Positions 1-29,219 of a stretch of DNA of 64,000 bases are shown piece by piece. The first letter of the stretch is position 1, and every line of letters starts with the position of its first letter. The translations under genes were made by a program, and so were the position numbers. Origin of the DNA: Shinella curvata (GTDB lineage Bacteria > Pseudomonadota > Alphaproteobacteria > Rhizobiales > Rhizobiaceae); contig NZ_JALJCJ010000006.1 in NCBI RefSeq assembly GCF_022899935.1, positions 248,001-312,000 on the forward strand. The letters are read 5' to 3'. The notes under the pieces are model-generated. The model saw nothing but the letters and a program-made list of their open reading frames with translations. It had not been told where the DNA came from and did not search any database.

Positions 1-368
1 GCGCCGACGATGAGCGGCACCGTCGCCGGACCGAAGACGGCGCGACCGATCTCGATGGCGCGGCCGATATTGCCAACGGCGGGAGCGGAATCGAAGGTCG
101 AGCAGACCTTGTAGTGGCAGAGTTCGGCATCGAGCGCCCTCAGCCAATCGAAAGCCGCTCGGAGATGCACATCCATCCAGTCGGGCGTTTCACTGCGGCT
201 GGTGCCGGCCAGGCCGAAGGCGCGCGCGCCAGAGAAGCGCGACAGCAGGTCCGCATTCGGCAGTTTCAGGAAAAGTACGGTCTCGGCGCCGTTCGAGGCC
301 AGCGCCTCCATGACATCGGTCGAACCGGTGAAATCGTCGCCATAGTAGCTGATCAGAGGACGCGTCAT
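1..368 (-). CDS. oiaK: 3-oxo-isoapionate kinase (four-carbon acid sugar kinase family), partial
   Basis: Only the first 122 codons are in the window; the gene runs off the left edge. The reverse-strand reading begins MTRPLISYYGDDFTGSTDV, the DDxTG hallmark of the four-carbon acid sugar kinase (DUF1537) family, which phosphorylates sugar acids with ATP. It starts 3 nt after the stop of the RuBisCO-like gene, so the two are co-transcribed. In characterised apiose pathways a kinase of this family makes 3-oxo-isoapionate 4-phosphate, the substrate of OiaX, and this pairing is the main ground for the name. Other family members act on threonate or erythronate, so the exact substrate is inferred. 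Confidence 0.8.
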   Translation of the reverse strand, partial: MTRPLISYYGDDFTGSTDVMEALASNGAETVLFLKLPNADLLSRFSGARAFGLAGTSRSETPDWMDVHLRAAFDWLRALDAELCHYKVCSTFDSAPAVGNIGRAIEIGRAVFGPATVPLIVG

Positions 369-371
369 GTC

Positions 372-1628
372 TCAGGCCGCCTTGCCGTCGGCAAATTTTT
401 CGATGGATTGCGCAAGTTCAGGATGGTCTTTCGCATAGGTCCCGAGCGGCACGCCGGCGACCGCCGCCTCCCAGGCCTGCTTCACGGCCTTCACCCCTGC
501 GCCGGGTCCCCCCGGATGGCTGACGATGCCGCCACCGCAGAGATAAAGCAGGTTCGTCGAGCCGCCCGTCGCCGCAATCGTATCCGGCGCCTGTCCGCCC
601 CACTGGCCCGAGCCGACGACCGGAAGTGCGACGTCCGCGCCGGAAAACAGCGGTGACGTGACGGCCTGATAGGAACGGACGAAGCTCTCGTCGGGCTCCC
701 AGTATTTCACGCGGATACCGTTGATCTGGAACTGATCTATTCCGAGAAGCCGCCAGAACTGCTGCCAGACGGAAAATTCGAAGCCCAGGCCGGCGTGGCG
801 CGTGAGAACGTCCCAGCCATTGCGGTGAGCGTGCAGCACGAGGCCGGAGCGCTTGCGCAGGAAGGCGAGCCCGCCGAAACCGATCGAGTTGATGTTGACG
901 ACGGCGCAATTGCCGCCGGCTTCCAGCACCATGTCGTGATTGCGCATCATCTCGTCCGGATCGGCATGGCTGATGCCGAAGGCATACATGACCTTCTTGC
1001 CGGTCTTCTGCTCATGGTCGAGGATTTTCGGCATGATCGCCGCCACACGCTCCTTCAGCGGAGAATAGGCCGGGCTCATCAGCTTCTCGTCGTCCTTGAC
1101 GAAATCGACACCGGCATCGATGAGTTCGTCGACCATCTCCGCCGTCTCATGCGGAAGGAGACCGAGCGCCGGCTTGACGATGGTGCCGATGATCGGTCGG
1201 TTCTTGACGCCCGTCAGCGCAAAGCTGCCCGACACGCCGAATTGGGGACCGGGATGTGCGGCGGCGAATTCGGGCGGCAGCTTCATATCGACGATGCGGA
1301 TGCCCGTCATGCCCTTGATGGAAAAGACACCGCCGACGGCAATCGTCATCAACGCAGACAGGTCCGTGCCGATGGCATCCAGCGGGAAATCGATATCGAC
1401 ATCCGCCCGGTTGAAGCTGACGGCGTCGCCCGCCTCATCGGGAAAGGAAGCACGGGCGGTCGGCGGCAGCGGACGAATGGCGACGACACGCGCGGCGACG
1501 CGCGCCTTCAGTTCCTCCGTCTCGCCCGGCAGCGCCACGAAGGTTCCGGTCGACTGGTCGCTGGCGATCTTCGTCGCCATTTTCTCTACCGAGCCCGGCG
1601 TCTCTATCCGATAGGTCAGACGGATCAC
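372..1628 (-). CDS. oiaX: RuBisCO-like protein, 3-oxo-isoapionate-4-phosphate decarboxylase
   Basis: A 418-residue RuBisCO large-subunit-family protein. The metal triad is kept: Lys178, Asp180 and Glu181 in GVDFVKDDE, with Lys152 in TIVKPALG and a phosphate-binding GSGQWGG loop near the C terminus. It starts at GTG, 6-7 nt after GGGAGGAG. As a form IV protein it is not expected to fix CO2. In known apiose pathways OiaX decarboxylates 3-oxo-isoapionate 4-phosphate to L-erythrulose 1-phosphate. Here it sits with a family kinase downstream, a divergent GntR regulator, and apiose dehydrogenase, lactonase and oxidoisomerase genes within 10 kb, which favours this role over other RuBisCO-like functions (methionine salvage, tetronate pathways). 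Confidence 0.85.
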   Translation of the reverse strand: MIRLTYRIETPGSVEKMATKIASDQSTGTFVALPGETEELKARVAARVVAIRPLPPTARASFPDEAGDAVSFNRADVDIDFPLDAIGTDLSALMTIAVGGVFSIKGMTGIRIVDMKLPPEFAAAHPGPQFGVSGSFALTGVKNRPIIGTIVKPALGLLPHETAEMVDELIDAGVDFVKDDEKLMSPAYSPLKERVAAIMPKILDHEQKTGKKVMYAFGISHADPDEMMRNHDMVLEAGGNCAVVNINSIGFGGLAFLRKRSGLVLHAHRNGWDVLTRHAGLGFEFSVWQQFWRLLGIDQFQINGIRVKYWEPDESFVRSYQAVTSPLFSGADVALPVVGSGQWGGQAPDTIAATGGSTNLLYLCGGGIVSHPGGPGAGVKAVKQAWEAAVAGVPLGTYAKDHPELAQSIEKFADGKAA

Positions 1629-1675
1629 GTTTTCTCCTCCCTAGGCTATGCCATATCCCTTGTTAAGGCGCCGCA

Positions 1676-1690
1676 ACTGGTATAATGAGT
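1676..1690. promoter_or_regulatory. Candidate GntR operator, site 1
   Basis: ACTGGTATAATGAGT lies in the 150-bp divergent gap between oiaX and the GntR gene. It is an imperfect palindrome, and its first ten bases recur exactly in front of apnO (10701-10715). The TGGTATA core is typical of FCD-type GntR operators. The match is seen; regulator binding is inferred. Confidence 0.55.
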
Positions 1691-1778
1691 ATTTATGTTA
1701 TTGCAAGCTGATTGCTGCGAAAGCTGTTGCGGCGAAGGCACTTGGTGCATATTCAAACCTGTCGAAATCAGGTGACTC

Positions 1779-2495
1779 ATGAACGTCGTTTCCGAACCGA
1801 TCGTCCGCAAGAAACTCTCCGATGAAGTTTTCGCGCGATTGAAGGCCATGATCGAGACCGGCGAGCTGAAAGCCGGCGACGACATGCCCTCCGAGCGCGA
1901 ACTGATGGAGCGCTATGGCGTCGGACGCCCGGCGATCCGCGAAGCCATGCAGGCGCTTGCCGGCAAGGGCCTCGTCGAAATTTCGCAGGGCGAGCGCGCC
2001 AAGGTGCTGCGCATCACCGCCGAATCCATCATCCGCCAGGTCGATCTGCCGGCCAAGATGATGCTGTCCGGCTCTTCCGACTCGCTCGAGCACCTGAAGA
2101 GCGCCCGTATCTTCTTCGAACGCGGCATGATCCGTGAGGCCGCCACCAAAGCGACACGCGAACATATCGCCGAACTGCGTGCCCTGCTCGACAAGCAGAA
2201 GGCCAGTCTCGGCGACGCCGACGCCTTCATCGATGCCGACATGGAATTCCACCAGTGTATCGCCCAGATCTCGGGCAATCCGATCTTTGCGGCCGTCAGC
2301 GGCGCGATGCTGGGCTGGCTGAAGTCCTATCATACCGAAATGCTCATCTGGACCGGCCGCGAGACTTTCACGCTCGCCGAGCACGAGGAAATCATCCGCA
2401 CCATCGAGAACGGCAATGCGGACATGGCCGAGAAGGCGATGATCAAGCACCTCGAACGCTCCCGCGCGCTCTATGCCCTCAAGGGCCAGAAGTAA
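1779..2495 (+). CDS. GntR-family (FCD domain) transcriptional regulator
   Basis: A 238-residue regulator: winged helix at about residues 10-75 (PSERELMERYGVGRPAIREA is the recognition region), then an all-helical FCD ligand domain of NanR/FadR type in the rest. It is divergent from oiaX-oiaK, and its 3' end almost meets the end of the lactonase gene. Position makes it the likely repressor of the apiose genes, sensing a sugar acid intermediate. Two matching sites, one before oiaX and one before apnO, support a single regulator for both transcripts. The ligand is not deducible from sequence. Confidence 0.85.
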   Translation: MNVVSEPIVRKKLSDEVFARLKAMIETGELKAGDDMPSERELMERYGVGRPAIREAMQALAGKGLVEISQGERAKVLRITAESIIRQVDLPAKMMLSGSSDSLEHLKSARIFFERGMIREAATKATREHIAELRALLDKQKASLGDADAFIDADMEFHQCIAQISGNPIFAAVSGAMLGWLKSYHTEMLIWTGRETFTLAEHEEIIRTIENGNADMAEKAMIKHLERSRALYALKGQK

Positions 2496-2498: not shown

Positions 2499-4361
2499 TC
2501 AGAGTACGATTTTAACGCAGCCATAAGGCGGCAGGGGAACCTTCCTGGCCATAGGCAAAGCGTCTCCGCCGATCAGCGTAACCGCACGCGGCAGCGACGG
2601 CAGGATCACCGTCTGCACCTCCGGCGTGATGTTTGCCATGAGCAGGCAATCCTTCGAGGCGAGACCAAGCACCGCATCCGGGCGCGATGTCTCGACGGCG
2701 TAAACCGCCTGCCCCATCAAAGCGCCAAGGCGAGCCAGAACATGTGCGAGCGGCCGCAAAGCGCCCTGAGCCGTCGGCTCGCCTTCACGCGCGACAAGCC
2801 CGAACGATCCGGCGAGCGTCGAGAGCGTCAGGACCTCCAGCCCCGTCGTCGCAACGGTCGCGGCATAGGCCAGCGTCCAGGCGGCTCCGAACTGGCCGTT
2901 ATGCCTGGCATCGACATTCGCCATCGGAATACGGCCGCCGGAGGGGTTGTCCTTCGTCGCGCTTCCATAGGGGTTCTGGCGCATGGCGATCGTCGAAGGG
3001 CCGATGCGGTAGGGCTTTTCGCCATAGATCGCGCGGGTGGAGCTGACGACGAAACGCAAGGCCTCGAAGGTCTGCATGACCGAAAGATCGTCGGCCGCAT
3101 GCACGATGGGATTGGTGCAATGGCTGACATAGTCGATGCGGTCGCCCGGCACACGCTTGCGGTTGAGCTCGGTAAAATAACTCATCATGCCGCCACCAAG
3201 GCGCACGCCCGGAAAGGCCGCCCGCGCCGCGGCATAGACATCCTCCAGCGGCGGGCAGTCCGGCCAGATGCTGCCCGGCGGCGTCGATTGGCGATCAACC
3301 GCGGGGCAGACGAACAGCGTGTCGAGCACCAGCCCAGCCTCACGCACGAGCGCGGCAAGCTCGGCCATCTCCGCGTTCAGCGACCCTTTGCAGGGCACCG
3401 CGACCTCGAGCGTCACCTTGAGGCCGGATCGTTCGGCAAGCTCGGCATACCCTTTCAGGGCAGGAAGGTCGTGGCCGGCGCCGGGATCGAAATGCACAAT
3501 CAGGTGTCGTGCGCCGATGGTCTGCAGGACGCCGAGTGTGGCCCGTTCTTGCGCCAGGCATTCCGGTCGCAGGCCGACGCCGATCTCCGGAAAACGGCGC
3601 CTCGTCGGCGTCAATTGCAGCGTGATGGCGCCCGATGTACTGGCAACCGGAGCCGCATCGTTCGCGGCCTCAATTGCGACCACGACCTTCTGGCTAAAAG
3701 GTTTACCCTCCGGAACACGATAGGGCCAGGGAAGTGCCAGCGGGCGCACATAGGTCTTGTAGGAGCCATCGGTCCAGTTACGCTGGTCTTCCATCTCGAA
3801 GATATCACCGACGAATTCCGTCATCGCGGAAATACCCGGCGCCACCTGATGGGTGATCGCGGAAATTTCCTTGAACGGCTGCCAAGGCTCGATCTGGTCG
3901 GGCCAGTGCGCATGCTCGACGTTGCCATCGCCATGACGAATCGTGACGGGCTGCCCCGCCACGCCGATCACGGGATGCAGCACCACGAAGCCCGCGCGCG
4001 CCGTCTCGAAATCTGCATCGCTGATGCAGTCAGCGGAAAAGGTGACGGCCTTTTCCGTCCCGGCAATCTTGATGGTGCAGTCGAGGTTGGCACCGGACGG
4101 AGCCGTGAAACGGGCCTTGTAGGAAACGGAAAAGTCCTGCCCTGCGGCCTCGATCCAGAGATCGGCAATTGCGGCGCTGCAGGTGCCCCAGTCCTTGTCG
4201 CGCACGAGGAACGCCACGGCGCGCAGCACCTCATGCCCGCGAAAGCGCAGGGTGCGCAGATTACCATCCTGAAGCGTCACACTCAGGTCGCCGGCAACGA
4301 GCGTGCGGCTTTCAGGCTCACGCTCGTTCGTGCCGTAGAGCCTGAGCAGGTCGCCGCTCAT
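2499..4361 (-). CDS. apnL: D-apionolactonase
   Basis: A 620-residue protein that looks like the D-apionate lactonase family, about the usual family length. It has no signal peptide and so is probably cytoplasmic. In the pathway it hydrolyses D-apionolactone, the product of the adjacent dehydrogenase, to D-apionate. It is the last gene of the minus-strand operon, and its ATG overlaps the upstream dehydrogenase stop (ATGA), implying translational coupling. The N-terminal half appears beta-rich and the middle barrel-like, judging by hydrophobic pattern only. Assignment rests on family recognition and neighbours; I could not identify catalytic residues. Confidence 0.75.
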   Translation of the reverse strand: MSGDLLRLYGTNEREPESRTLVAGDLSVTLQDGNLRTLRFRGHEVLRAVAFLVRDKDWGTCSAAIADLWIEAAGQDFSVSYKARFTAPSGANLDCTIKIAGTEKAVTFSADCISDADFETARAGFVVLHPVIGVAGQPVTIRHGDGNVEHAHWPDQIEPWQPFKEISAITHQVAPGISAMTEFVGDIFEMEDQRNWTDGSYKTYVRPLALPWPYRVPEGKPFSQKVVVAIEAANDAAPVASTSGAITLQLTPTRRRFPEIGVGLRPECLAQERATLGVLQTIGARHLIVHFDPGAGHDLPALKGYAELAERSGLKVTLEVAVPCKGSLNAEMAELAALVREAGLVLDTLFVCPAVDRQSTPPGSIWPDCPPLEDVYAAARAAFPGVRLGGGMMSYFTELNRKRVPGDRIDYVSHCTNPIVHAADDLSVMQTFEALRFVVSSTRAIYGEKPYRIGPSTIAMRQNPYGSATKDNPSGGRIPMANVDARHNGQFGAAWTLAYAATVATTGLEVLTLSTLAGSFGLVAREGEPTAQGALRPLAHVLARLGALMGQAVYAVETSRPDAVLGLASKDCLLMANITPEVQTVILPSLPRAVTLIGGDALPMARKVPLPPYGCVKIVL

Positions 4362-5392
4362 GCCAGCAGATCCGCAATTGCGATGGTCTCGCCGCGCTCG
4401 GCGCTGAGATAGGCGGCCTTGACGAGGGCGAAGGTCTTCAGATTGTCGCGACCGGATGTATCCGGCTCGCGGCCTTGCGACAGCCGCTCCGCCCAGTGTT
4501 TCTGGATGAGCGCAACGCTCTCCTGAATGTTGTGCCAGGGCCGCGACGCCCAGGGCAACAGGTTCGGCTCGACAACGCTTTGTACCGTGCCTTCACGGCC
4601 GTGAACCGTCAGCTTGTAATCCTTGCCGAGACGCAGCGTGCCCTTGGTCCCATCAATCTCGACGAAGGTCTCCGGGAACGGTTCTTCCGGCAGCTTCGAC
4701 GCGTAGCTGACATCGACGATGGAGGTTATGCCATTGTTATGGTCGAGCAACATGGTCGCGACATCCTCGCCGGCGATGTCCGGGTTGATGCGGCGTGTGC
4801 GGGCAGTCATGCGGCTCGCATCGCCGAAGAGAAAGCGGGCGATGTCGAGCGAATGAATGCCGAGGTCTTCGATGATGAAGCGCTTGCCCTTGGCGAGATA
4901 AGGCTGGCCGGAGAAGACATCGAAGCCGGAGCGGAAGGAGACACGGCCCCAGAACGGCTCGCCGATCGCGCCGCTGTCCAGCACGGCCTTGACCGCGAGG
5001 ATCGGGGTCTGCCAGCGGAAATTCTCGTGGATCATCAGCGGAATGCCGGCTGCATCCGCGGCGGCGACCATGGCCTTGGCATCGGCGAGCGTCGGCGCGA
5101 AGGGCTTCTGGCAGATCGCCGGAACCTTGTGGCTGGCCGCAAGCTCGACTAAGGCACGATGACTGCCGACCGTCGTCGCGATATCGACGAAATCGAAGCC
5201 ACCATCGGCGAACATCTCTTCCGCCGACTGGTAGCGCCTTGCAACACCAAACTGCTCGCCGACGATGCGCAGGCGCTCGGGGTCACGGTCGCAGATGGCG
5301 ACGATCTCGACATCGGCGAGATCCTGCCAACCATGCATCTGGTTGACGGCGAAGAAGCCGCAGCCGATCAGCGCACCCTTGGTCTTCGTCAT
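4358..5392 (-). CDS. apsD: D-apiose dehydrogenase (Gfo/Idh/MocA family)
   Basis: A 344-residue oxidoreductase with an N-terminal Rossmann fold (GCGFFAVNQMHGW, residues 10-22) and the family's lysine motif in CQKPF near residue 95, followed by a C-terminal alpha/beta domain with the substrate-side DLGIHSLD motif. It oxidises D-apiose to D-apionolactone with NAD(P) in the expected pathway. It lies 2 nt after the permease gene and overlaps the lactonase gene, so uptake, oxidation and lactone opening are encoded consecutively. The family covers many sugars; the apiose assignment comes from the company it keeps. Confidence 0.78.
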   Translation of the reverse strand: MTKTKGALIGCGFFAVNQMHGWQDLADVEIVAICDRDPERLRIVGEQFGVARRYQSAEEMFADGGFDFVDIATTVGSHRALVELAASHKVPAICQKPFAPTLADAKAMVAAADAAGIPLMIHENFRWQTPILAVKAVLDSGAIGEPFWGRVSFRSGFDVFSGQPYLAKGKRFIIEDLGIHSLDIARFLFGDASRMTARTRRINPDIAGEDVATMLLDHNNGITSIVDVSYASKLPEEPFPETFVEIDGTKGTLRLGKDYKLTVHGREGTVQSVVEPNLLPWASRPWHNIQESVALIQKHWAERLSQGREPDTSGRDNLKTFALVKAAYLSAERGETIAIADLLA

Positions 5393-5394: not shown

Positions 5395-6462
5395 TCAGCC
5401 TGCCTTTGCCATCTGCATCAGGGTGACGCGCTGCTGGAGGCGGCGCTGCGCCTGGTCGACGACCACCGCCACGATGATCACGAGACCCTTGATCACCATC
5501 TGCCAGAAGGAACTGACACCCATCATCACCAGACCATCCGAGAGAATACCGATCACGAAGGCGCCGATGATCGTGCCGCCGATCGTGCCGCGCCCGCCCG
5601 ACATGGATGTACCACCGAGAACGGCCGCCGCAATGGCATTCAGCTCGAGATTGGTGCCGGTCGCCGGATGCGAGGCCATCAGTTCCGAGGAGATGACGAG
5701 GCCGACGATCGCCGCGCAGAAGCCGGAGAACATGTAGACGAACATTTTCACGCGGTTGACGCGGATGCCGGACATGCGCGACGCGCGTTCATTGCCGCCG
5801 ACCGCGAAGATATGCCGGCCGAGCGGCACAAAGCGGGCGAAATAGGCCGCACCCAGCGCCACCACGATAAGGATCCAGACGGAGACCGGCAGACCGAGGA
5901 TCGAACCGGAACCGAGATAGGAAAAGCCCTGGTTGCCGAGGTCTTCGCGGCCGGTGAGATTGGGCAGCGTCTGACCATCGGAATAGAGCAGCGCCATGCC
6001 GCGCGCCACATAGAGCGTGCCGAGCGTCGCAATGAAGGGCGCGACGTTGAGGCGAGTGATCAGGAGGCCGTTCACAGCACCGATCACGATGCCGACGATG
6101 GCGACAATGATCGCCACCTCGACCACATTGAAATAGACGGTGTAGCCGAGCGGCAGCGCCACGCCATACATGATGAGGCCGCCGGCGATCATGCCACACA
6201 GGCCGACGATGGAGCCGACCGACAGATCGATGCCGCCGGTGATGATGACGAAGGTCATGCCGATGGCGAGGAAGGCGTTCTGCGTCGCATGCTTCGACAT
6301 CAGAATCATGTTCGCGGTCGACAAAAAATTCGGCGCGAAGATCGAGAAGAAGATGATGACCGCAAAGAGCGCGATGAAGGTTCGAAGCTTCATCAGCGTG
6401 AGCAGGGCGGCGCCGGTGGAGAGGTGGTTGCCGGTGGCGGCAGTTTGCGTTGCTGTCGTCAT
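5395..6462 (-). CDS. Sugar ABC transporter permease (RbsC type), probable D-apiose uptake
   Basis: A 355-residue very hydrophobic inner-membrane protein with about ten predicted membrane segments. It carries RbsC landmarks: GGIDLSVGSIVGL near residue 80 and GGTSMSGGRGT near residue 290. The ATG overlaps the ATPase stop codon; a GTG one codon earlier is the alternative start. It forms the channel with the adjacent RbsA-type ATPase and the binding protein upstream. The substrate is inferred to be D-apiose because dehydrogenase and lactonase genes follow at once. Confidence 0.88.
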   Translation of the reverse strand: MTTATQTAATGNHLSTGAALLTLMKLRTFIALFAVIIFFSIFAPNFLSTANMILMSKHATQNAFLAIGMTFVIITGGIDLSVGSIVGLCGMIAGGLIMYGVALPLGYTVYFNVVEVAIIVAIVGIVIGAVNGLLITRLNVAPFIATLGTLYVARGMALLYSDGQTLPNLTGREDLGNQGFSYLGSGSILGLPVSVWILIVVALGAAYFARFVPLGRHIFAVGGNERASRMSGIRVNRVKMFVYMFSGFCAAIVGLVISSELMASHPATGTNLELNAIAAAVLGGTSMSGGRGTIGGTIIGAFVIGILSDGLVMMGVSSFWQMVIKGLVIIVAVVVDQAQRRLQQRVTLMQMAKAG

Positions 6463-8006
6463 CACGCATGCATCCTTTTGGTTTTATGTCCCTCTGCGGA
6501 GGCCGAAATCACCATGTCCTCGGTGGCGTCCTTTCGGTCCACCACCATCACCAGCCGGCCATTGCTCATGACAGCGATGCGGTCAGAGAGCGCCATGACC
6601 TCTTCGAGGTCGGAGGTGGAGAACAGGATGGCAAGCCCCTCGCCCGCCAACCGCCGCATGGTGCGGAAAACATCCGCCTTGGCGCCGACATCGATGCCGC
6701 GGCTCGGCTCGTCCATCAAAAGCACTTTCGGCCCGGTCATCAACGCCTTGCCGATGACGACCTTCTGCTGATTGCCGCCGGACATGGAGGTGACGTCGAG
6801 ATCGGGGTTCTTCGCCTTGATCGAGAGGTTGCGGATCGCGTTGGCGATCGCCTCCTTCTCGCGCTTCAGGTCGATATGGAAGCCGGCTTTCAGGAACTGA
6901 CTCAAACTCGCCATGGAGAGATTGTCGGCAATCGACATGGATTGCACGAGGCCTTCGCGCTGCCGGTCTTCCGGGATCAGCGACAGGCCCTCGCGGATGC
7001 GCCGGGTCGTGTCGCGCCCCTTCAGTTCCTCGCCCTCGACGAAGATTTTCCCTGTGTAATGCTCGTGGCGGCCCATGATGCATTCAAATAGTTCGGAGCG
7101 CCCCGCGCCCATCAGACCGTAAATGCCGAGTATTTCGCCCTTGCGCACGCCGATCGAGACATGATCGACGGCATAACCACCCTGCGCGCGCGGCAAGCAG
7201 ATGTCTTCCGTTCGAAACACTTCCGCACCCGGCTCGTGCTCGACCTGCTTGGCAAAGTCCTTGGCATCCGAACCGATCATCGAGCGCACGATCCAGCGCG
7301 TGTCGATGTCCTTGACCATGGCATGGCCGGTGATCTGACCGTCCTTGAGAACGGTGATGTAGTCGCCGATGCGCATCAGCTCTTCCAGCCGGTGCGAAAT
7401 ATAGACGATGGCTACGCCGCGCGCCTTGAGATCGGCGATGACGCGGAAGAGCACGTCGACTTCCGCAGCACTCAGCGCCGATGTCGGTTCGTCCATGATG
7501 AGGATGCGCGTGTCGAGCGAGACGGCGCGGGCGATCTCGACAAGCTGTTGCTGGCCGATCGGCAGATCCTCGGCAAGTGTGTCGGCGGAAATACCGGCTT
7601 CCAGGCGGTTCAGGAATTCGTTGGCCTTCTCGACCTGCGCCTTGTGGTCGATGCCGCGCAGGCCGCGCGTTATCTCGCGCGTGGCAAAGATGTTTTCGGC
7701 GACCGAGAGATTGCCGAACAGGTTCAGCTCCTGGAAGACGATGCCGATGCCGTGGCGCACCGCATCCGCCGGGCTGTTGAGATGGATGCGCTCACCATCC
7801 ATCCAGATCTCGCCCAGCGTCGGCCGTTCCACGCCGGCGATGATGCGCATCATGGTGGATTTGCCGGCGCCGTTTTCGCCGACCAGCACGTTGACCGCGC
7901 CACGACGCAGCTTGAGGTCCGCCTTCTTCAGCGCCACGATCCCGGAATAGGCCTTGGTGATGTCCTTCAGTTCGAGAATGACGTCGCCGTCGTCAGTGGC
8001 GTTCAT
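6462..8006 (-). CDS. Sugar ABC transporter ATP-binding protein (RbsA type)
   Basis: A 514-residue tandem ABC ATPase. The first domain has Walker A GENGAGKS near residue 45 and Walker B ILIMDEPTSAL; the second has a degenerate Walker A (GLMGAGRS) but an intact signature MSGGNQQK and Walker B LLMDEPSRGID. This asymmetry is normal for RbsA-type proteins, where one site hydrolyses ATP. It energises the permease encoded next, with which it overlaps by 3 nt, and follows the DUF2291 gene by 1 nt. Confidence 0.93.
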   Translation of the reverse strand: MNATDDGDVILELKDITKAYSGIVALKKADLKLRRGAVNVLVGENGAGKSTMMRIIAGVERPTLGEIWMDGERIHLNSPADAVRHGIGIVFQELNLFGNLSVAENIFATREITRGLRGIDHKAQVEKANEFLNRLEAGISADTLAEDLPIGQQQLVEIARAVSLDTRILIMDEPTSALSAAEVDVLFRVIADLKARGVAIVYISHRLEELMRIGDYITVLKDGQITGHAMVKDIDTRWIVRSMIGSDAKDFAKQVEHEPGAEVFRTEDICLPRAQGGYAVDHVSIGVRKGEILGIYGLMGAGRSELFECIMGRHEHYTGKIFVEGEELKGRDTTRRIREGLSLIPEDRQREGLVQSMSIADNLSMASLSQFLKAGFHIDLKREKEAIANAIRNLSIKAKNPDLDVTSMSGGNQQKVVIGKALMTGPKVLLMDEPSRGIDVGAKADVFRTMRRLAGEGLAILFSTSDLEEVMALSDRIAVMSNGRLVMVVDRKDATEDMVISASAEGHKTKRMHA

Positions 8007-8007
8007 G

Positions 8008-8646: not shown

Positions 8647-8673
8647 TCCCAATCTCCGTCTTGAATAGAAAAC

Positions 8674-8700: not shown

Positions 8701-8715
8701 GCCATCGCGGGAGGA

Positions 8716-10609
<1,894 letters not shown>

Positions 10610-14368: not shown

Positions 14369-14382
14369 GATGGGCATTCCTG

Positions 14383-19049: not shown

Positions 19050-19062
19050 GGCTTCAGCGCTC

Positions 19063-21381: not shown

Positions 21382-22041
21382 GTCATGATGTCCTCCCCAT
21401 GAACGGCGCCGGCCTGATCTCCTCATCCGCCTTGCGCTGCAGTGCACACTTTTTCGCAGTTGCGATATATGTGTGTGATATGTCCCGATATGTATGTTAA
21501 CTTATCACAGGCTGTCAATCGATGTTTTTCGGCTACCTTAAAACAATTCAGTTTCTTTTTTCGTACCACCACCCACGCCGCACAGGCACACAACGCAGAC
21601 AATCGCCCAATTGGTCGAGATATCAAGCAAACCTTATTCCGCATCAGCGAAGATAAACCAGAGCTGTTTTTGCTCGATAAATTTCGGAGTTCAGGCGCCC
21701 AGACGAAATCAAGAGACCCACCAATCCCTGAATTGGAGCGAAAAGCACCCACGGTCGGGACGTGGCTCGCCTTCCGCAACAGCGGCTATCTTTGACATCA
21801 AGCATATCTGAAAAATAATTCGATGTGCGAAAAATTTTACGAGACATGTGATAACTTTATGGTATGTTTTCTCGTGAGGTTCGCGAGATCTCGTGGTACA
21901 TTCCTTGAAAGGTCGCCATGACCTTGGCCGAGACGGCCGGAACACCATGCGCTTCAGCGAAAGACGATCGGGAGGATGGAATGCTTTGTTTCGGATCAGG
22001 CGAAGCGACGCTTGCTGTCGCAGGCTGCGCGGGTGCGCATC
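21382..22041. promoter_or_regulatory. Divergent ery control region
   Basis: About 660 bp between the transport operon (minus) and eryA (plus), distinctly AT-rich. It must hold both promoters. TGTGATAA(G/C)TT occurs once on each side in opposite orientation: 21499-21509 read on the minus strand and 21847-21857 on the plus strand. Three GATAT repeats (from 21464, 21477 and 21487) lie near the transport promoter. These are candidate sites for EryD or EryR. No protein-coding gene was supported here; an antisense reading into eryA was discarded. Confidence 0.5.
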
Positions 22042-23592
22042 ATGACTGAGACGGCAGACCTGATCATCGGCATCGACGCAGGCACCTCCGTCATGAAGGC
22101 CGTCGCCTTCACGCTTTCCGGCCGCCAGATCGCCAGCGCCTCCGTGCGCAACAGCTACAAGACCAGCGACGACGCTTCCGTCACGCAATCCCTCGACCAG
22201 ACTTGGCTCGATTGTACGCGCGCCTTGCGCGGTCTCGGCGAAAAGGTCCCCGACCTTGCGGGCCGCGCTGCCGCCATTGCCGTCACCGCCCAGGGCGACG
22301 GCACCTGGCTCGTCGGCGCCGGCAACCGCCCTGTCGGCGATGCCTGGCTGTGGCTCGATGCCCGTGCCGCCCCGACCGTCGAGCGCCTTGCCGCCAGCGC
22401 TGCCGATCGCCAGCGTTTCGAGGCGACTGGTACCGGCCTCAACACCTGCCAGCAGGGCACGCAACTTGCCCATATGGACCGCCATTTTCCGGAATTGCTT
22501 GCTGGCGCGGAAGCCGCGATGCACTGCAAGGACTGGCTTTACCTCAACCTGACGGGCGTGCGCGCCACCGACCCCTCCGAGGCGAGCTTCACCTTCGGCA
22601 ATTTCCGCACCCGCTGCTATGATGGCGACGTGCTCGCCGCGCTCGGCCTGACGCACCGCCGCAACCTGCTGCCCGAAGTCCTCGAGGGCACCGAAACCAC
22701 GCATCCCTTGACGGCGGAAGCCGCCGCTGCGGCTGGTCTCAAGGCCGGCACGCCGGTTTGTCTCGGTTATGTCGACATGTGCATGACGGCGCTTGGCGCC
22801 GGCGTGCGCAGCGAGGGCCGCAACGCCGCCTGCTCCGCCATCGGCTCGACAGGCGTGCATCTCCAGGCGAAATCCGTGGCCGACGTCGTGCTGAACGCCG
22901 AGCGCACCGGCTATGTCATCGCGCTGCCCATCCCCGGCATCGTCACCCAGGTGCAGACCAATATGGGCGCGACGATCAATCTCGACTGGCTGCTCCAGCT
23001 CGGCGCCGATCTGCTCGGCGAATTCGGCGTGACCGTCGCCCTCAACGATATGATCGGCCGCGTCGACCGGTGGATTGCCGCAAGCAAGCCGGGCAATGTG
23101 CTCTATCACCCGTATATTTCCGAGGCCGGCGAACGCGGCCCCTTCGTCAATGCCCGTGCGCGCGCCAATTTCACCGGCCTCGCCAGCCGCCACCGCTATC
23201 CCGATCTCGTCCGCGCCGTCGTCGAAGGCCTCGGCATGGCGACGCGCGATTGTTACGCTGCCATGGGGGCGCTGCCCTCCGAACTGCGCGTCAGCGGCGG
23301 TGCGGCCCGCTCGGCCTCGCTGCGCAACACGCTGGGTGCCGCCCTCGGCGCGCCGGTGCGTGTCAGCACCCGCGAGGAAGCGGGTGCGGCCGGTGCCTCG
23401 ATGATGGCGGCTGTCGCCATCGGCGCCTACCGCACGATGGACGATTGCATCGCCGACTGGGTGACCCCGGAGCTTGGCGATGCCGAGCAGCCGAAACCGG
23501 AAGACACCGAACGCATGAACCGCCTCTTCGCCGCCTATTCCGAGGTGCGCCGGGGCATCGCGCCGGCCTGGGACATCCTGGCCGCACGCTGA
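22042..23592 (+). CDS. eryA: Erythritol kinase (FGGY family)
   Basis: A 516-residue FGGY kinase. The N-terminal phosphate loop reads IIGIDAGTSVMKAVAF, and the C-terminal half has the adenosine-side RVSGGAARSASLRNTLGAA. It phosphorylates erythritol to L-erythritol 4-phosphate, the first committed step. It leads eryABCD, the gene order known from Brucella and rhizobia. Start choice is uncertain: the in-frame ATG at 21976 directly abuts a GGGAGG, giving almost no spacing, so I prefer 22042 where family similarity begins, although its own ribosome site is weak. Confidence 0.85.
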   Translation: MTETADLIIGIDAGTSVMKAVAFTLSGRQIASASVRNSYKTSDDASVTQSLDQTWLDCTRALRGLGEKVPDLAGRAAAIAVTAQGDGTWLVGAGNRPVGDAWLWLDARAAPTVERLAASAADRQRFEATGTGLNTCQQGTQLAHMDRHFPELLAGAEAAMHCKDWLYLNLTGVRATDPSEASFTFGNFRTRCYDGDVLAALGLTHRRNLLPEVLEGTETTHPLTAEAAAAAGLKAGTPVCLGYVDMCMTALGAGVRSEGRNAACSAIGSTGVHLQAKSVADVVLNAERTGYVIALPIPGIVTQVQTNMGATINLDWLLQLGADLLGEFGVTVALNDMIGRVDRWIAASKPGNVLYHPYISEAGERGPFVNARARANFTGLASRHRYPDLVRAVVEGLGMATRDCYAAMGALPSELRVSGGAARSASLRNTLGAALGAPVRVSTREEAGAAGASMMAAVAIGAYRTMDDCIADWVTPELGDAEQPKPEDTERMNRLFAAYSEVRRGIAPAWDILAAR

Positions 23593-23642
23593 CGAAACGA
23601 CAAGTGCGCCGCCCTATCCGGCTGGCGCTGAAGGAGACCCAA

Positions 23643-25154
23643 ATGAACGAGCCCGAGCTTATTGACCTCTTCGTGATCGGCGGCGGCATCAACGGCGCCG
23701 GCATTGCCCGCGATGCGGCGGGCCGCGGATTGAAGGTCGTGCTCTGCGAGAAGGACGACCTGGCCGAGGGCACCTCCTCGCGCTCCGGCAAGCTGGTGCA
23801 TGGTGGCCTGCGCTATCTCGAATATTACGAGTTCCGCCTGGTGCGCGAGGCGCTGATCGAGCGCGAAGTGCTGCTCAATGCCGCCCCGCATATCATCTGG
23901 CCCATGCGCTTCGTGCTGCCGCATAGCCCTGAGGATCGTCCGGCCTGGCTCGTGCGCCTCGGCCTCTTCCTCTACGACCATCTCGGCGGCCGCAAGAAGC
24001 TGCCGGGCACCCGCACGCTCGATCTCAAGCGCGACCCCGAGGGAACGCCGATCCTCGACCAGTACACGCGTGGCTTCGAATATTCCGACTGCTGGGTGGA
24101 TGACGCCCGCCTCGTCACGCTGAACGCCATAGGCGCCGCCGAAAAGGGCGCCGTCGTGCTCACCCGCTCGCCCGCCACTTCCGCCCGCCGCGAAAACGGC
24201 GCCTGGACGGTCACGACGAAGAACAGCACGACCGGCGAAACCAGAACCTTCCGCGCAAAATGCCTCGTCAACTGTGCCGGCCCCTGGGTCTCCGACGTCA
24301 TCAACCGCGTCGCCGGCTCGAACTCGTCGCGCAATGTGCGTCTCGTCAAGGGCAGCCATATCATCGTGCCGAAGTTCTGGGCCGGTGCGAATGCCTATCT
24401 CGTACAGAACCACGACAAGCGCGTCATCTTCATCAACCCCTATGAGGGCGACAAGGCGCTGATCGGCACCACCGATATCGCCTATGAGGGCCGCGCCGAG
24501 GATGTCTCGGCCGACGAGGCGGAGATCGACTACCTGCTGAAGGCGGTGAACCGCTACTTCAAGGAGAAGCTACGCCGGCAGGACGTGCTGCATTCTTTCT
24601 CCGGCGTGCGCCCGCTGTTCGACGACGGCAAGGGCAACCCCTCCGCCGTCACCCGCGACTATGTCTTCGATCTCGACGAGACCGGCGGCGCGCCGCTGCT
24701 CAACGTGTTCGGCGGCAAGATCACCACCTTCCGCGAGCTCGCCGAGCGTGGCATGCATCGCCTCCAGCACATCTTCCCCAAGATGGGCGGCGACTGGACG
24801 GAAAAGGCCCCGCTGCCGGGTGGCGACATGCCGGGGGCCGATTACGAGACCTTCGCCAACAGCCTGCGCGACAGCTACCCCTGGATGCCGCGCAAGCTCG
24901 TGCAGCATTACGGCCGGCTCTACGGCACTCGCACCAAGACGATCGTCGGCAATGCGACCAGCCTTGACGGCCTCGGCCGGCATTTCGGTGGACAGTTCTA
25001 TGAGGCGGAAGCACGTTACCTCGTCGCCAGCGAATGGGCAGAGCGCCCGGAAGACGTGCTCTACCGCCGCACCAAACATTATCTGCACCTGACGGAAGCC
25101 GAACGCGCGGCCTTCGCCGACTGGTTCAATGCTGCCCGCCTTGCTGCGGCCTGA
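23643..25154 (+). CDS. eryB: Erythritol-4-phosphate dehydrogenase (GlpD family)
   Basis: A 503-residue FAD enzyme with VIGGGINGAGIARDAAGRG at the N terminus and SGKLVHGGLRYLEYYE near residue 58, as in GlpD. It oxidises L-erythritol 4-phosphate to L-erythrulose 1-phosphate (L-3-tetrulose 4-phosphate), feeding electrons to quinones. AGGAGACCC precedes the ATG, which is 50 nt after eryA; the frame stays open far upstream, but that part is a shadow of eryA. The next gene, eryC, starts 7 nt after its stop. A diverged second copy lies at 12.7-14.4 kb. Confidence 0.88.
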   Translation: MNEPELIDLFVIGGGINGAGIARDAAGRGLKVVLCEKDDLAEGTSSRSGKLVHGGLRYLEYYEFRLVREALIEREVLLNAAPHIIWPMRFVLPHSPEDRPAWLVRLGLFLYDHLGGRKKLPGTRTLDLKRDPEGTPILDQYTRGFEYSDCWVDDARLVTLNAIGAAEKGAVVLTRSPATSARRENGAWTVTTKNSTTGETRTFRAKCLVNCAGPWVSDVINRVAGSNSSRNVRLVKGSHIIVPKFWAGANAYLVQNHDKRVIFINPYEGDKALIGTTDIAYEGRAEDVSADEAEIDYLLKAVNRYFKEKLRRQDVLHSFSGVRPLFDDGKGNPSAVTRDYVFDLDETGGAPLLNVFGGKITTFRELAERGMHRLQHIFPKMGGDWTEKAPLPGGDMPGADYETFANSLRDSYPWMPRKLVQHYGRLYGTRTKTIVGNATSLDGLGRHFGGQFYEAEARYLVASEWAERPEDVLYRRTKHYLHLTEAERAAFADWFNAARLAAA

Positions 25155-25161
25155 GGTTCCC

Positions 25162-26097
25162 ATGCCGCTGACACTCTCGCTCAACACCAATCCGCTGGTC
25201 AACCGCTTCGCCGATCCCGATGATCTCATCGAGACCGTCGCACGCGACCTGAAGCTGCGCGACCTCCAGCTCACGCATGAATTCATCAATCCGAGCTGGA
25301 ACGCCGCGACGATCCGCCGGCTGACTCACCAGATGGACAAGGCGCTTCAGCGCACCGGCGTGCGCATCACGTCAGGCATGACCGGCCCCTATGGCCGCCT
25401 CAACCATTTCGGCCATCCCGATGCGGATGTACGCCGCTACTATGTCGACTGGTTCAAGACCTTCGCCGACATCATCGGCGATCTCGGCGGCACCTCGGTC
25501 GGCACGCAATTCGCCATCTTCACCTACAAGGATTACGACGATCCGGTCCGCCGTGAGGAGCTGATCCAGATCGCCATCGACTGCTGGGCCGAGGTGGCTG
25601 AGCACGCGAAAGGTGCCGGCCTGTCCTATGTGTTCTGGGAGCCGATGAGCATAGGCCGCGAGTTCGGCGAAACCATCGCCGAATGCATCAAGCTTCAGGA
25701 CCGCCTGACCGCCGCCGACATGGCGATCCCCATGTGGATGATGGCCGATATCGACCATGGCGACGTCACCTCCAGCAATCCCGACGATTATGAACCCTAT
25801 GCCTGGGCGCGCGCCGTGCCGAAAGTGTCGCCGATCATCCACATCAAGCAGAGCCTGATGGACAAGGGCGGCCACCGTCCTTTCACCGCCGAATTCAACG
25901 CCAAGGGCCGCATCCAGCCGGAACCGTTGCTGAAGGCCTTTGCCGAGGGCGGTGCTGATGACAACGAGATCTGCCTCGAACTCTCCTTCAAGGAGCGCGA
26001 GCCGAACGACCGGCAAGTCATTCCGCAGATCGCCGAAAGCATCGCCTTCTGGGCGCCGCATATCGATACCGGTGCATCCGATCTCAAGCTGGGCTGA
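25162..26097 (+). CDS. eryC: L-erythrulose-1-phosphate isomerase (TIM-barrel)
   Basis: A 311-residue xylose-isomerase/AP-endonuclease-2-like TIM-barrel protein (TLSLNTNPLVNRFA start; HEFINPSW near residue 37; YVFWEPMSIGREFGET mid-protein). In the erythritol pathway EryC converts L-erythrulose 1-phosphate to D-erythrulose 4-phosphate. I chose the ATG just after the eryB stop, where GAGG lies about 6 nt upstream; an overlapping start 11 codons earlier is less likely. This is the point where the RuBisCO-like apiose branch would join the erythritol branch. Confidence 0.85.
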   Translation: MPLTLSLNTNPLVNRFADPDDLIETVARDLKLRDLQLTHEFINPSWNAATIRRLTHQMDKALQRTGVRITSGMTGPYGRLNHFGHPDADVRRYYVDWFKTFADIIGDLGGTSVGTQFAIFTYKDYDDPVRREELIQIAIDCWAEVAEHAKGAGLSYVFWEPMSIGREFGETIAECIKLQDRLTAADMAIPMWMMADIDHGDVTSSNPDDYEPYAWARAVPKVSPIIHIKQSLMDKGGHRPFTAEFNAKGRIQPEPLLKAFAEGGADDNEICLELSFKEREPNDRQVIPQIAESIAFWAPHIDTGASDLKLG

Positions 26098-26142: not shown

Positions 26143-26170
26143 CTTGCTCGAGCAGGACAGGACATCGCCG

Positions 26171-27115
26171 ATGACCGACAATGAAGATTCCCTCGCCGTC
26201 CGCGCCGCCTGGCTGCATTACATCGGGGGCTTCACCCAGTCCGCCGTCGCCAAGCGCCTCGGCATTCCCTCAGTGAAGGCGCACCGGCTGATCGCGCGCG
26301 CGGTCGCAGAGGGCGTGGTGAAGGTCAGCATCGACGGCGATATCGCCGAATGCGTCAATCTGGAGGTCGAACTCTCCAAGCGCTACGGCCTCGATTATTG
26401 TGAAGTCGCGCCCGATGTCGACGACGATGCGTTGGCGTTGACGACGCTCGGCCATGTCGGCGCGGATTTCCTGCGACGCGAAATCGAGCGCGGCGAAGTC
26501 GCCGTGATCGGGCTCGGTCATGGGCGCACACTGTCGGCCGCCGTGCATCACCTGCCGCGCATCAGCGCCGGCGGCACCCGCTTCGTCTCGCTGCTCGGCG
26601 GTCTCACCCGCAATTATGCCGCCAATCCCTACGATGTCATGCACCGTCTGGCGGCCAAGACCGGCACACAGGCCTATGTGATGCCCGTGCCCTTCTTCGC
26701 CAATACGGAGGAAGACCGCGAGGTCCTGCTCTCCCAGCGCGGCGTCAGCGAGGTGTTCAATCTCGCCCGCAATGCCGATCTGAAACTCGTCGGCATCGGC
26801 ACGGTGGATAACCAGGCGCATCTCGTCACCTCCGGCATGCTGCAACCGAACGAGCTGGAGGAGATTGTCGCCCTCGGTGGTGTCGGCGAATTGCTCGGGC
26901 ATTTCTTCGACGGCAAGGGCCGCATTCTCGAGACATCGGTGACGGCGCGCACACTGGCGGCCTCCTTTTCGGAAGAAGGCGGCGACCGGGTCGTCGCCAT
27001 TGCCGGCGGCCGGTCCAAGACGGAAGCGATCCGCGCCGTTCTGCACAGCCACAAGCTCCATGGACTGATCACGGATGAACGGACAGCGCGCACGCTGCTA
27101 CAAAGCTCCGCATAG
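26171..27115 (+). CDS. eryD: Erythritol operon regulator (SorC/DeoR sugar-binding family)
   Basis: A 314-residue regulator with an N-terminal helix-turn-helix (FTQSAVAKRLGIPSVKAHRLI) and a large C-terminal sugar-binding domain of SorC type (VIGLGHGRTLSAAV; FVSLLGGLTRNY). In Brucella EryD represses the ery genes and erythritol relieves it. It is the fourth gene of the operon, so autoregulation is likely. I chose the ATG with AGGACA upstream; one nine codons earlier is possible. Confidence 0.88.
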   Translation: MTDNEDSLAVRAAWLHYIGGFTQSAVAKRLGIPSVKAHRLIARAVAEGVVKVSIDGDIAECVNLEVELSKRYGLDYCEVAPDVDDDALALTTLGHVGADFLRREIERGEVAVIGLGHGRTLSAAVHHLPRISAGGTRFVSLLGGLTRNYAANPYDVMHRLAAKTGTQAYVMPVPFFANTEEDREVLLSQRGVSEVFNLARNADLKLVGIGTVDNQAHLVTSGMLQPNELEEIVALGGVGELLGHFFDGKGRILETSVTARTLAASFSEEGGDRVVAIAGGRSKTEAIRAVLHSHKLHGLITDERTARTLLQSSA

Positions 27116-27116
27116 A

Positions 27117-27132: not shown

Positions 27133-27193
27133 ATTTCTATGTTATATTCTGCCAAGAATGATGTTATAGAACTGCGGACAGCGGGAGGACGCG

Positions 27194-27979
27194 GTGAAAC
27201 GGGAAGAGCGCAGGCAGGAGATCATCAATCTGCTCGTCGAAAGCCGTGCCGTCGAACTCGATGATATCGCCGAGCGTTTCGGCGTCTCCAAGATGACCAT
27301 CCACCGCGATCTCGACGACCTCGAACGGGCTGGCGTGCTGCGCAAGGTGCGCGGCGGCGCGACGATCGATGCCGGCACGCAGTTCGAAAGCGATTTCCGG
27401 TTCCGGGAATTGCAGGAGGCCGATGTCAAGCGGGCCTTGGCCGAGACGGCCGCCGAGCTTGTAGAGCCCGGCATGACCGTGATGATCAACGACGGCTCGA
27501 TGGCCTCCGTGCTCGGCGACGTGCTCGCGGACAGGAAGCCGATCACCATCATCACCAACAATGCTGCGATCATGGAGCGCGCCAAGGGTCTTTCCGGCGT
27601 GACGCTGATTGGCCTCGGCGGCGTCTACTCCTCCAAGTTCAACGCCTATTTCGGCATCGTCACGGAAGAAGCGCTGTCGCGCCTGCGCGCCGACATCGCC
27701 TTCATCTCTGCGCCTGCCGCATCCGGCCGGCTCGCCTACCATATGGACGAGGCCGTCGTACGCACCAAGCGGGCGATGATGGCCTCCAGCCGCCAGACCT
27801 GCCTCATGATCAACAGCAGGCGCTTCGGCCACACGGCACTGCATGTGCTCGCCGATATCGCCGAATTCGATACCGTCATTTCCGACAAACCCCTGCCCCA
27901 CGACACATCGGCCGAACTTGGCGCCCAAGTCGACGATAGCAAGACCGTGGTCCGCATCGCCAAGGAGACAACACCATGA
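27194..27979 (+). CDS. eryR: DeoR-family regulator of the tpiB-rpiB transcript
   Basis: A 261-residue DeoR regulator: helix-turn-helix LDDIAERFGVSKMTIHRDLD at residues 21-40, then a DeoRC ligand domain (MINDGSMASVLGDV; TNNAAIMERA). It starts at GTG, 5 nt after GGGAGGAC. It overlaps tpiB by 4 nt. The same order, eryR-tpiB-rpiB, is known next to rhizobial ery genes, where this regulator controls the isomerase genes. The ligand is probably a tetrose phosphate. Confidence 0.85.
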   Translation: MKREERRQEIINLLVESRAVELDDIAERFGVSKMTIHRDLDDLERAGVLRKVRGGATIDAGTQFESDFRFRELQEADVKRALAETAAELVEPGMTVMINDGSMASVLGDVLADRKPITIITNNAAIMERAKGLSGVTLIGLGGVYSSKFNAYFGIVTEEALSRLRADIAFISAPAASGRLAYHMDEAVVRTKRAMMASSRQTCLMINSRRFGHTALHVLADIAEFDTVISDKPLPHDTSAELGAQVDDSKTVVRIAKETTP

Positions 27980-28746
27980 GCCAAGGCCGGAATTTCTGGG
28001 TCGGCACGAGCTGGAAGATGAACAAGACGCTTGCCGAGGCGAAACGCTTCGCCGAGGGCCTGAAGGCGGCCGACGGCGGCCGCAATGCCCGCATCCAGCG
28101 CTTCGTCATCCCGCCGTTCACCGCCGTGCGCGAGGTTAAGGCGCTGCTCGCCGACACCTCCGTCAAGGTCGGCGCGCAGAACATGCACTGGGCCGACGAC
28201 GGCGCCTGGACCGGCGAAGTCTCGCCCGTGATGCTGAAGGATTGCAATCTCGATCTCGTCGAGCTCGGCCATTCCGAGCGCCGTGAACATTTCGGCGAGA
28301 CGGACGAGACGGTCGGCCTCAAGACGGAAGCCGCCGTGCGCCATGGCCTCGTGCCGCTGATCTGCATCGGCGAGACCCTGACCGACCGCGAAAGCGGCCG
28401 TGCGGACGAGGTGCTCGCCAAGGAAGTGCGCGGCGCGCTCGGCGAGCTCCAGGGCGCCCAGAAGCAGGCTGAAATCCTTCTCGCCTACGAGCCTGTCTGG
28501 GCGATCGGCGAAAAAGGCATTCCCGCCACCGCCGACTATGCCAATGCCCGCCATGCGGAAATCGCAAAGGTGGCGGAAGATGTGCTCGGCCGCCGCATTC
28601 CCTGCCTCTATGGCGGTTCGGTCAACCCGCAGAATTGCGAAGAACTGATCGCCTGCCCCGACATCGACGGGCTCTTCATCGGCCGCTCGGCCTGGAAGGT
28701 CGAAGGCTATCTCGACATCCTGGCGCGCTGCGCCACCACCATCTGA
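27976..28746 (+). CDS. tpiB: Triose-phosphate isomerase paralogue acting on D-erythrulose 4-phosphate
   Basis: A 256-residue TIM-barrel isomerase with the full triose-phosphate isomerase set: Lys in [10 protein letters not shown], His in [12 protein letters not shown], catalytic Glu in [11 protein letters not shown], and the phosphate loop YGGSVNP. In erythritol catabolism this copy (EryH) interconverts D-erythrulose 4-phosphate with a tetrose 4-phosphate. It overlaps eryR and precedes rpiB by 14 nt. It could also complement triose-phosphate isomerase, as the active site is intact. Confidence 0.88.
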
Positions 28747-28760
28747 AAAGGAGAACTCCC

Positions 28761-29219
28761 ATGAAACTCGCTATTGCCGGTGACAGCGCAGGCAAAGGCC
28801 TTGCCAAGATCCTTGCCGACCACCTGAAGGCCAGCCATGACGTGCACGAAATCTCGCGCACCGATGCCGGCCCGGATGCCTTTTACGCCACCCTCTCCGA
28901 TCGCGTCGCCTCGGCCGTCATCGCTGGCGAATACGACCGCGCCATCCTCGTCTGCGGCACCGGCATCGGCGTCTGCATTTCGGCCAACAAGGTGCCGGGC
29001 ATTCGCGCCGCGCTGACGCACGACACCTATTCGGCCGAGCGCGCCGCCCTTTCCAACAATGCCCAGATCATCACCATGGGCGCCCGCGTCATCGGCTCGG
29101 AACTGGCCAAGGCCATCGCCGACGCCTATCTCGCCCAGACCTTTGACGAAAACGGCCGCTCGGCCGGCAACGTCCAGGCGATCAACGAAGTCGACGCCAA
29201 GTACAACGCCGGAAAATAA
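28761..29219 (+). CDS. rpiB: Ribose-5-phosphate isomerase B family, erythrose-4-phosphate isomerase
   Basis: A 152-residue RpiB/LacAB-type isomerase ([18 protein letters not shown] at the start; [20 protein letters not shown] holds the active-site cysteine and anion loop). In the Brucella pathway this enzyme (EryI) produces D-erythrose 4-phosphate. AAAGGAGAA lies 7 nt before ATG. It is the last gene of the transcript, with a strong GC hairpin 10 nt after its stop. Confidence 0.88.

Follow-up and report, generated by a model that had tools for sequence, protein, structure and literature searches.

Enzymes of the D-apiose and erythritol routes in Shinella curvata: a probable meeting point at L-erythrulose 1-phosphate, downstream of EryC

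Where do the routes for D-apiose and erythritol meet in Shinella curvata, and which enzymes would serve both? The question is raised by a 64,000-nucleotide stretch of contig NZ_JALJCJ010000006.1 (hereafter the window; C16:248001-312000, in a genome of 6.07 Mb), in which an apiose cluster, running from oiaX (372-1628) to the end of apnO at 10609, is joined to a complete erythritol (ery) locus that ends at 29219 and is bordered on the right by minC, from 29640. A first-pass annotation had placed the apiose genes and the eryABCD-eryR-tpiB-rpiB set within 29 kb, and all the genes that it named are present, oiaK lying just partly inside the window; the kinase that it counted is presumably this oiaK fragment. 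It had further proposed that EryB and OiaX release the same compound and that EryC, TpiB and RpiB are all shared. The reading favored here, which we regard as probable, is that both routes, each already known by itself, converge on L-erythrulose 1-phosphate, with TpiB and RpiB common to both and EryC expected for erythritol only.

The pathway reactions and their stereochemistry are taken from published work and general background. OiaX (EC 4.1.1.121) is said to yield L-erythrulose 1-phosphate (Carter 2018), as the first-pass annotation also stated, and the steps downstream of this product were reportedly already drawn in that work. Barbier 2014 reportedly described Brucella EryABCHI as five steps to D-erythrose 4-phosphate, the product of EryB being the L-3-form of tetrulose-4-phosphate. 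With its chain counted from the phosphate-bearing carbon, D-3-tetrulose-4-phosphate is the same S-configured compound as L-erythrulose 1-phosphate (worked out by hand). In the Brucella papers, as far as their excerpts go, EryC is a tetrulose-4-phosphate racemase and D-3-tetrulose-4-phosphate is the substrate of EryH (PMC5468441, PMC11508834). The excerpt of PMC10733421 likewise describes EryC as a D-erythrulose 1-phosphate 3-epimerase that feeds L-erythrulose 1-phosphate, with corresponding roles for LerI and DerI; EryC is thereby placed upstream of the L-form, which contradicts the proposed identity of the EryB and OiaX products. Because OiaX yields the L-form directly while EryC converts the D- to the L-form, the two pathways should converge downstream of EryC, at TpiB and then RpiB; and because they merge one step below the EryB product, EryC should have no part in apiose use.

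In the proposed scheme, D-apiose would be taken up by the ATP-binding cassette (ABC) transporter, oxidized by ApsD and opened by ApnL, after which rearrangement by ApnO, phosphorylation by OiaK and decarboxylation by OiaX would lead to L-erythrulose 1-phosphate. Erythritol would be phosphorylated by EryA and oxidized by EryB to D-erythrulose 1-phosphate, which EryC would epimerize to L-erythrulose 1-phosphate. For both sugars, TpiB would then form D-erythrulose 4-phosphate and RpiB D-erythrose 4-phosphate, so that the apiose cluster would borrow the sole tpiB and rpiB copies of the ery locus. Growth on D-apiose is reported for strain LCG007, whose OiaX-type cluster comes with the five corresponding enzymes (PMC11747546, excerpt).

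In the genome of the window, the TpiB-type, DerI and EryC searches each give a single match, and all three lie within the window. The first-pass statement that no other enzyme for erythrulose phosphate is seen beside oiaX thus extends to the whole genome for these three proteins; on the left flank (10 frames, 18 kb), where kinases and transport genes are found among others, no TpiB- or DerI-type isomerase was found. Since tpiB and rpiB each occur once, in the ery locus, sharing is the simplest reading, and gene content, copy number and co-occurrence together suggest that TpiB and RpiB are shared in the living cell.

Co-occurrence was followed in two surveys. In the first, 51 oiaX genomes (that of the window and 50 of those behind 80 oiaX loci) were searched for EryC, TpiB, DerI and OiaX, an EryC match being counted at E 1e-20. 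A TpiB-type protein is present in 51/51, cleanly separated from ordinary TpiA (at least 68% against at most 42% identity), and DerI scores above its cut-off in 51/51. EryC is found in 41 of the 51 and in 29 of the 30 remaining oiaX genomes. In 10/10 of the EryC-less genomes among the 51, tpiB lies within 3 kb of oiaX, across a gap of 1.36-1.42 kb that is about the length of oiaK, against 3 of the 41 genomes that do have EryC, each of which carries another tpiB near eryC (Fisher p 2e-8 for the 51 alone, kinship ignored). Among the remaining 30, the sole EryC-less genome (L110) has tpiB 1.35 kb from oiaX, and such nearness was found in 0 of the 29 with EryC, within the reach of the stored loci. 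Over the combined 81 genomes, tpiB is thus within 3 kb of oiaX in 11/11 without EryC and 3/70 with it. On the OiaX tree of the 51, 5/5 independent pairs run in the expected direction (p 0.06), so that the contrast, when corrected for kinship, is suggestive and falls short of significance.

The second survey covered 297 genomes from the order, 21 of which hold OiaX above its cut-off, with a threshold of E<1e-70 for TpiB and EryC. TpiB is present in 20/21 oiaX genomes vs 18/276 others, and EryC in 12/21 vs 11/276; weaker TpiB matches come from five f23 genomes (56-58%) and from G050 (54%). The start of tpiB lies within 9 kb of oiaX in 8 of the 9 EryC-less genomes and in 2 of the 12 with EryC. 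The exception for TpiB, G087, which is included in these 8, has gntR-oiaX-tpiB-rpiB-oiaK contiguous (L132:8788-13622), the tightest private arrangement seen, and its rpiB scores above the DerI cut-off; the count of 20/21 was nevertheless not raised to 21/21, since the 276 others were searched at E<1e-70 alone and the comparison would not be like-for-like. The two surveys overlap, G105 and G346 having the same coordinates. A class-wide survey found OiaX (E<1e-180) in 1 of 385, the genome of the window itself, and adds no test of the pairing.

Joining of the two loci is more frequent than chance: among the 41 genomes with EryC, 16 (window included) have eryC and oiaX no more than 31 kb apart, against an expectation of about 1% per 6 Mb genome, a rough estimate that ignores kinship. 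The joined order of the window recurs in 4 Shinella genomes, in one of which, S. kummerowiae, the Dak gene was not found. In B. pituitosa and O. chromiisoli, the same GlpD-like/FGGY/DeoR/ery half is accompanied by apiose genes in a different order. In two Rhizobium genomes and one other Rhizobiales genome, oiaX is preceded, at a distance of 3-4 kb, by the tpiB of an eryABCD-R-tpiB-rpiB set. Mesorhizobium genomes carry eryC and oiaX on opposite strands, 4-12 kb apart and in one case 30 kb. The remaining layouts consist of a private tpiB-rpiB pair next to oiaX or of loci that are far apart. On the OiaX tree, with five rows omitted in which oiaX is near a contig end, the joined state requires at least 9 changes when private layouts are scored as not joined, and 11, with 5 forced by starred branches, when it is taken as a group among all rows; it is weakly clustered (29/500 shuffles as low), and private tpiB-rpiB copies require 7 changes. 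Such repeated changes imply that joining arose or was lost repeatedly. In M. hawassense (G323, L125), a truncated DerI-like rpiB, matched over positions 1-126 and below the cut-off, stands after oiaX-oiaK; no adjacent tpiB match was found there, the ery copy lying 28 kb away, and the remnant may be a private pair in decay. In Ensifer canadensis, the apiose cluster adjoins GH88, DUF2264, kduI and kduD genes (L133:25570-36156), a neighborhood that fits apiose release from pectin.

The apiose genes appear to have a regulatory signal of their own. A 15-base word, made up of one variable base followed by CTGGTATAATGAGT, is found upstream of oiaX in 78/80 loci with at most 4 mismatches to the word at the apnO site; 18 of 400 random 300-base stretches from the same loci reach it, some of them probably true sites. 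Its 14-base core has 2 sites in the whole genome at up to 1 mismatch, in the oiaX/gntR and apnO promoters, and it is probably this candidate operator that the apiose GntR protein binds. A search for an operator shared by the apiose promoters and that of tpiB found none, the apiose word being absent from the tpiB promoter in the whole-genome scan. As the operator stands at two apiose promoters only, tpiB-rpiB would have to be induced in some other way. EryR, whose gene overlaps tpiB by four bases, would offer the simplest route: it may sense the erythrulose phosphate made by both routes and so induce eryR-tpiB-rpiB on apiose. The inverted pair TTCTAT..ATAGAA, a candidate EryR operator, is loosely kept and is missing in some of the relatives shown.

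Several gene assignments exceed curated cut-offs, namely those of OiaX (779 bits against an equivalog cut-off of 700 for NF042437), ApnL (822 against 750, NF049900) and the rpiB product (253.7 against 240, NF051858, DerI). The OiaX of the window is closest, among the 80 loci, to a Shinella protein (93-94% identity). TpiB carries the NCBIfam label of a mere triose-phosphate isomerase (NF000722, 434.9 bits), but its nearest solved structure is PDB 11ef, 'L-erythrulose-1-phosphate isomerase' (E 3.6e-140), while the best triosephosphate isomerase reaches 1.5e-52, so that it is nearer to the former. The structures nearest to EryC and RpiB, 4k3z and 5ifz, are deposited as D-erythrulose 4-phosphate dehydrogenase, an older assignment, and as ribose 5-phosphate isomerase; both deposited names depart from the revised pathway. 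The nearest solved structures to the apiose binding protein are PDB 5ibq, which presumably contains apiose, and 4ry0. With loci cut by contig ends scored as misses, gntR is found in 79/80 oiaX loci, apsD in 77/80 and apnO in 69/80 (both at 55% identity or more), and apnL in 68/80 (at least 40%). On the erythritol side, eryEFG is divergent from eryABCD and accompanied by eryR-tpiB-rpiB, the arrangement of the Rhizobium leguminosarum-type erythritol locus.

These data bear on three other explanations. The original proposal, in which EryB and OiaX would share a product and EryC, TpiB and RpiB would all serve apiose, draws support from the presence of all three genes in the cluster, from the completeness of the ery locus and from the enrichment of EryC in oiaX genomes of the order, as well as its presence in 70/81. 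An EryC match is absent, though, from 11/81 oiaX genomes at E 1e-20, each with tpiB close to oiaX, and from 9/21 at 1e-70, while TpiB and DerI accompany oiaX in all of the 51; moreover, the name given to EryC in the PMC10733421 excerpt sets it above the L-form. The part of the proposal that concerned TpiB and RpiB therefore stands, EryC as an enzyme common to both routes is rejected by co-occurrence, and the proposal as a whole seems very unlikely. It is also unlikely, if somewhat less so, that the two blocks are mere neighbors in a plant-sugar island and that the OiaX product is handled elsewhere, for example by a promiscuous TpiA, an aldolase or a phosphatase. Such an island would fit with the separation of the apiose cluster and the ery locus in many genomes, with the failure to find an operator in common, and with the kduI, kduD and GH88 genes that adjoin the Ensifer canadensis apiose cluster instead. 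It fits poorly with the 14/80 loci in which tpiB-rpiB lies within 3 kb of oiaX without eryC in the stored locus, with the insertion of tpiB-rpiB directly between oiaX and oiaK in G087, and with the far greater frequency of TpiB in oiaX genomes.

Least credible is the explanation that the RuBisCO-like protein performs another reaction, as a transcarboxylase/hydrolase or a hamamelose-type enzyme, so that erythrulose phosphate is not formed at all: such activities are known for other RuBisCO-like proteins, according to excerpts of PMC6302742 and PMC8914248, but the score of the protein against the OiaX equivalog model and the conservation of apsD, apnO and gntR around oiaX point to the decarboxylase.

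Against the reading in which TpiB and RpiB are shared downstream of OiaX and EryC, several points have to be set. The loci are distant or on separate contigs in many EryC-bearing genomes, so joining is not required, and EryC-less G135 has tpiB and oiaX on separate contigs. By the GntR signal, tpiB-rpiB appears to lie outside the apiose regulon, so sharing would need another inducer. The 50 genomes of the first survey were hand-picked after their neighborhoods had been seen, and EryC-less genomes are over-represented among them (10/51 vs 1/30); this notwithstanding, the association holds in full across the 81. The G087 tpiB (46% identical; 265 bits against the 293 of NF000722) is a putative assignment made largely by position. 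On the apiose side, ApsD, a Gfo/Idh family protein for which all listed equivalog models fall below their cut-offs, and ApnO are identified tentatively, by family and conserved position. The kinase at the left edge, a frame of 434 amino acids (window 1-371 on the minus strand and about 930 bases outside) directly after oiaX, has NF042436 as its best family, with 435 bits over nearly the whole model against a curated cut-off of 700; it is taken as a probable OiaK by position only.

The chemistry is for the most part established; the new elements are the survey of joined and private layouts across genomes, the corrected branch point, the tight association between oiaX and tpiB-rpiB, the predicted dispensability of EryC for apiose use, and the apparently separate regulation of the two blocks. 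Huang 2015 is said to have described a tetritol route of Mycobacterium smegmatis with LerI and DerI; it has the same steps from L-erythrulose 1-phosphate through D-erythrulose 4-phosphate to D-erythrose 4-phosphate, and the first isomerase of the window, of the triosephosphate-isomerase family, is likened to LerI by reaction. The window resembles the RuBisCO-like-decarboxylase D-apiose pathway reported by Carter et al. 2018 (see also PMC6302742, excerpt) in its clustered oiaX, oiaK, apnL, Gfo/Idh dehydrogenase, PGDH_C protein and ribose-type transporter, but has no private tpiB-rpiB by oiaX, the abutting erythritol locus holding the sole copies. It resembles the R. leguminosarum-type erythritol locus (PMC3599248, excerpt) in eryEFG with a leading hypothetical gene, divergent eryABCD and eryR-tpiB-rpiB, but has an apiose cluster on one flank; the words apiose and RuBisCO do not occur in the text of Geddes et al. 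2013 on ery loci (PMC3599248). TpiB and RpiB correspond to EryH and EryI of Brucella (PMC5468441, PMC11508834, excerpts), a pathway described for one substrate, whereas the last two steps in the window are predicted to serve apiose too. Among the open-licence papers listed, judged by title or abstract start, no description of a joined apiose-erythritol cluster was found.

If the favored reading is true, two carbon sources that are both associated with plants but otherwise unrelated, one a sugar of pectin and the other a polyol, would merge at one four-carbon phosphate after EryC. It would predict which mutants lose which sugar, an eryC mutant being expected to grow on apiose, and could explain tpiB-rpiB pairs outside erythritol loci; lineages with isomerases reserved for apiose could then be compared, in a natural experiment, with those in which one pair serves both sugars. 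Outside its erythritol locus, S. fredii carries another eryR-tpiB-rpiB set, possibly a xenologue (PMC3599248, excerpt), which an apiose role could explain. The 'Rubisco-like protein' of R. etli and R. phaseoli, tied to biotin-independent growth and flanked by ribose transport and assimilation genes in the excerpt of PMC8914248, may be OiaX.

Table 1. Features of the apiose and erythritol blocks, in window coordinates.
Feature	Position	Strand	Basis or remark
oiaK start, 3-oxo-isoapionate kinase (putative)	1-371	-	gene C16:247070-248371, crosses left window edge; NF042436 best family
oiaX, 3-oxo-isoapionate-4-phosphate decarboxylase (RuBisCO-like)	372-1628	-	NF042437, 779 bits
Candidate GntR operator CTGGTATAATGAGT	1677-1690	+	oiaX/gntR promoter region
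GntR/FCD regulator of apiose genes (putative role), divergent from oiaX	1779-2495	+	PF00392, PF07729
apnL, D-apionate lactonase	2499-4361	-	NF049900, 822 bits
apsD, putative D-apiose dehydrogenase (Gfo/Idh family)	4358-5392	-	family, position
Apiose ABC transporter, ribose-type	5395-9741	-	permease 5395-6465, ATPase 6462-8006, DUF2291 lipoprotein 8008-8688, binding protein 8716-9741
apnO, putative D-apionate oxidoisomerase (PGDH_C family)	9782-10609	-	PF16896, 251.6 bits; position
Second candidate GntR operator CTGGTATAACAAGT	10702-10715	+	upstream of apnO
Dak1-Dak2 ketose kinase	10913-12613	-	domain match
Second polyol set	12704-16826	-	GlpD-like 12704-14377, FGGY kinase 14383-15939, DeoR 15972-16826
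ery-type ABC transporter eryGFE (binding protein, permease, ATPase) and DUF2291 lipoprotein	16942-21251	-	divergent from eryA
eryA, erythritol kinase (FGGY)	21976-23592	+	family match
eryB, erythritol-phosphate dehydrogenase	about 23640-25154	+	glycerol-3-phosphate dehydrogenase family; start approximate
eryC, D-erythrulose 1-phosphate 3-epimerase	25129-26097	+	PDB 4k3z, E 3.5e-201
eryD, regulator	26144-27115	+	family match
Candidate EryR operator, inverted pair TTCTAT..ATAGAA	27135-27171		upstream of eryR, by eye
eryR, DeoR-family regulator	27194-27979	+	family match
tpiB (eryH/lerI function), L-erythrulose-1-phosphate isomerase	27976-28746	+	PDB 11ef, E 3.6e-140; predicted shared enzyme 1
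rpiB/DerI, D-erythrulose-4-phosphate isomerase	28761-29219	+	NF051858, 253.7 bits; predicted shared enzyme 2

The frame at 1698-2450(-), opposite the GntR gene and with no family match, is taken as spurious. The first-pass annotation did not list the GntR regulator (1779-2495), the Dak1-Dak2 kinase or the second FGGY/GlpD-like/DeoR set. Between the two blocks (10913-16826) lie the Dak1-Dak2 kinase, the GlpD-like dehydrogenase, the FGGY kinase and the DeoR regulator (DeoR1). Identity to the corresponding ery proteins is 29% for the FGGY kinase (EryA), 29% for the GlpD-like protein (EryB) and 36% for DeoR1 (EryR). Orthologues of the FGGY kinase (at least 57%) are found in 31/51 genomes and lie within 15 kb of eryC in 28 of the 31, also in genomes with oiaX elsewhere; as they stay near eryC, the FGGY/GlpD-like/DeoR set goes with the ery locus, and a part in apiose use was rejected on this ground. 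The Dak1-Dak2 protein was at first a candidate for the 3-oxo-isoapionate kinase, but was set aside since the oiaK gene spans the window edge and no Dak gene was found in one of the Shinella clusters. Left of the window (L112:5770-14466, equal to C16:235770-244466), an ABC sugar transporter is followed by DhaK-type genes and a SorC/LsrR-like and DhaK frame, possibly a further uptake and kinase cluster for ketotetroses or dihydroxyacetone. A wider hub with more than two inputs, in which the FGGY/GlpD-like set, Dak1-Dak2 and this left-hand DhaK-SorC-ABC cluster would feed additional polyols or ketotetroses (for instance threitol, erythrulose or apiitol) into the single TpiB-RpiB, with EryR responding to the erythrulose phosphate that they have in common and co-inducing the exit for all inputs, can be entertained but is rather doubtful. 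In some of the FGGY orthologues, a stop is reported inside the match.

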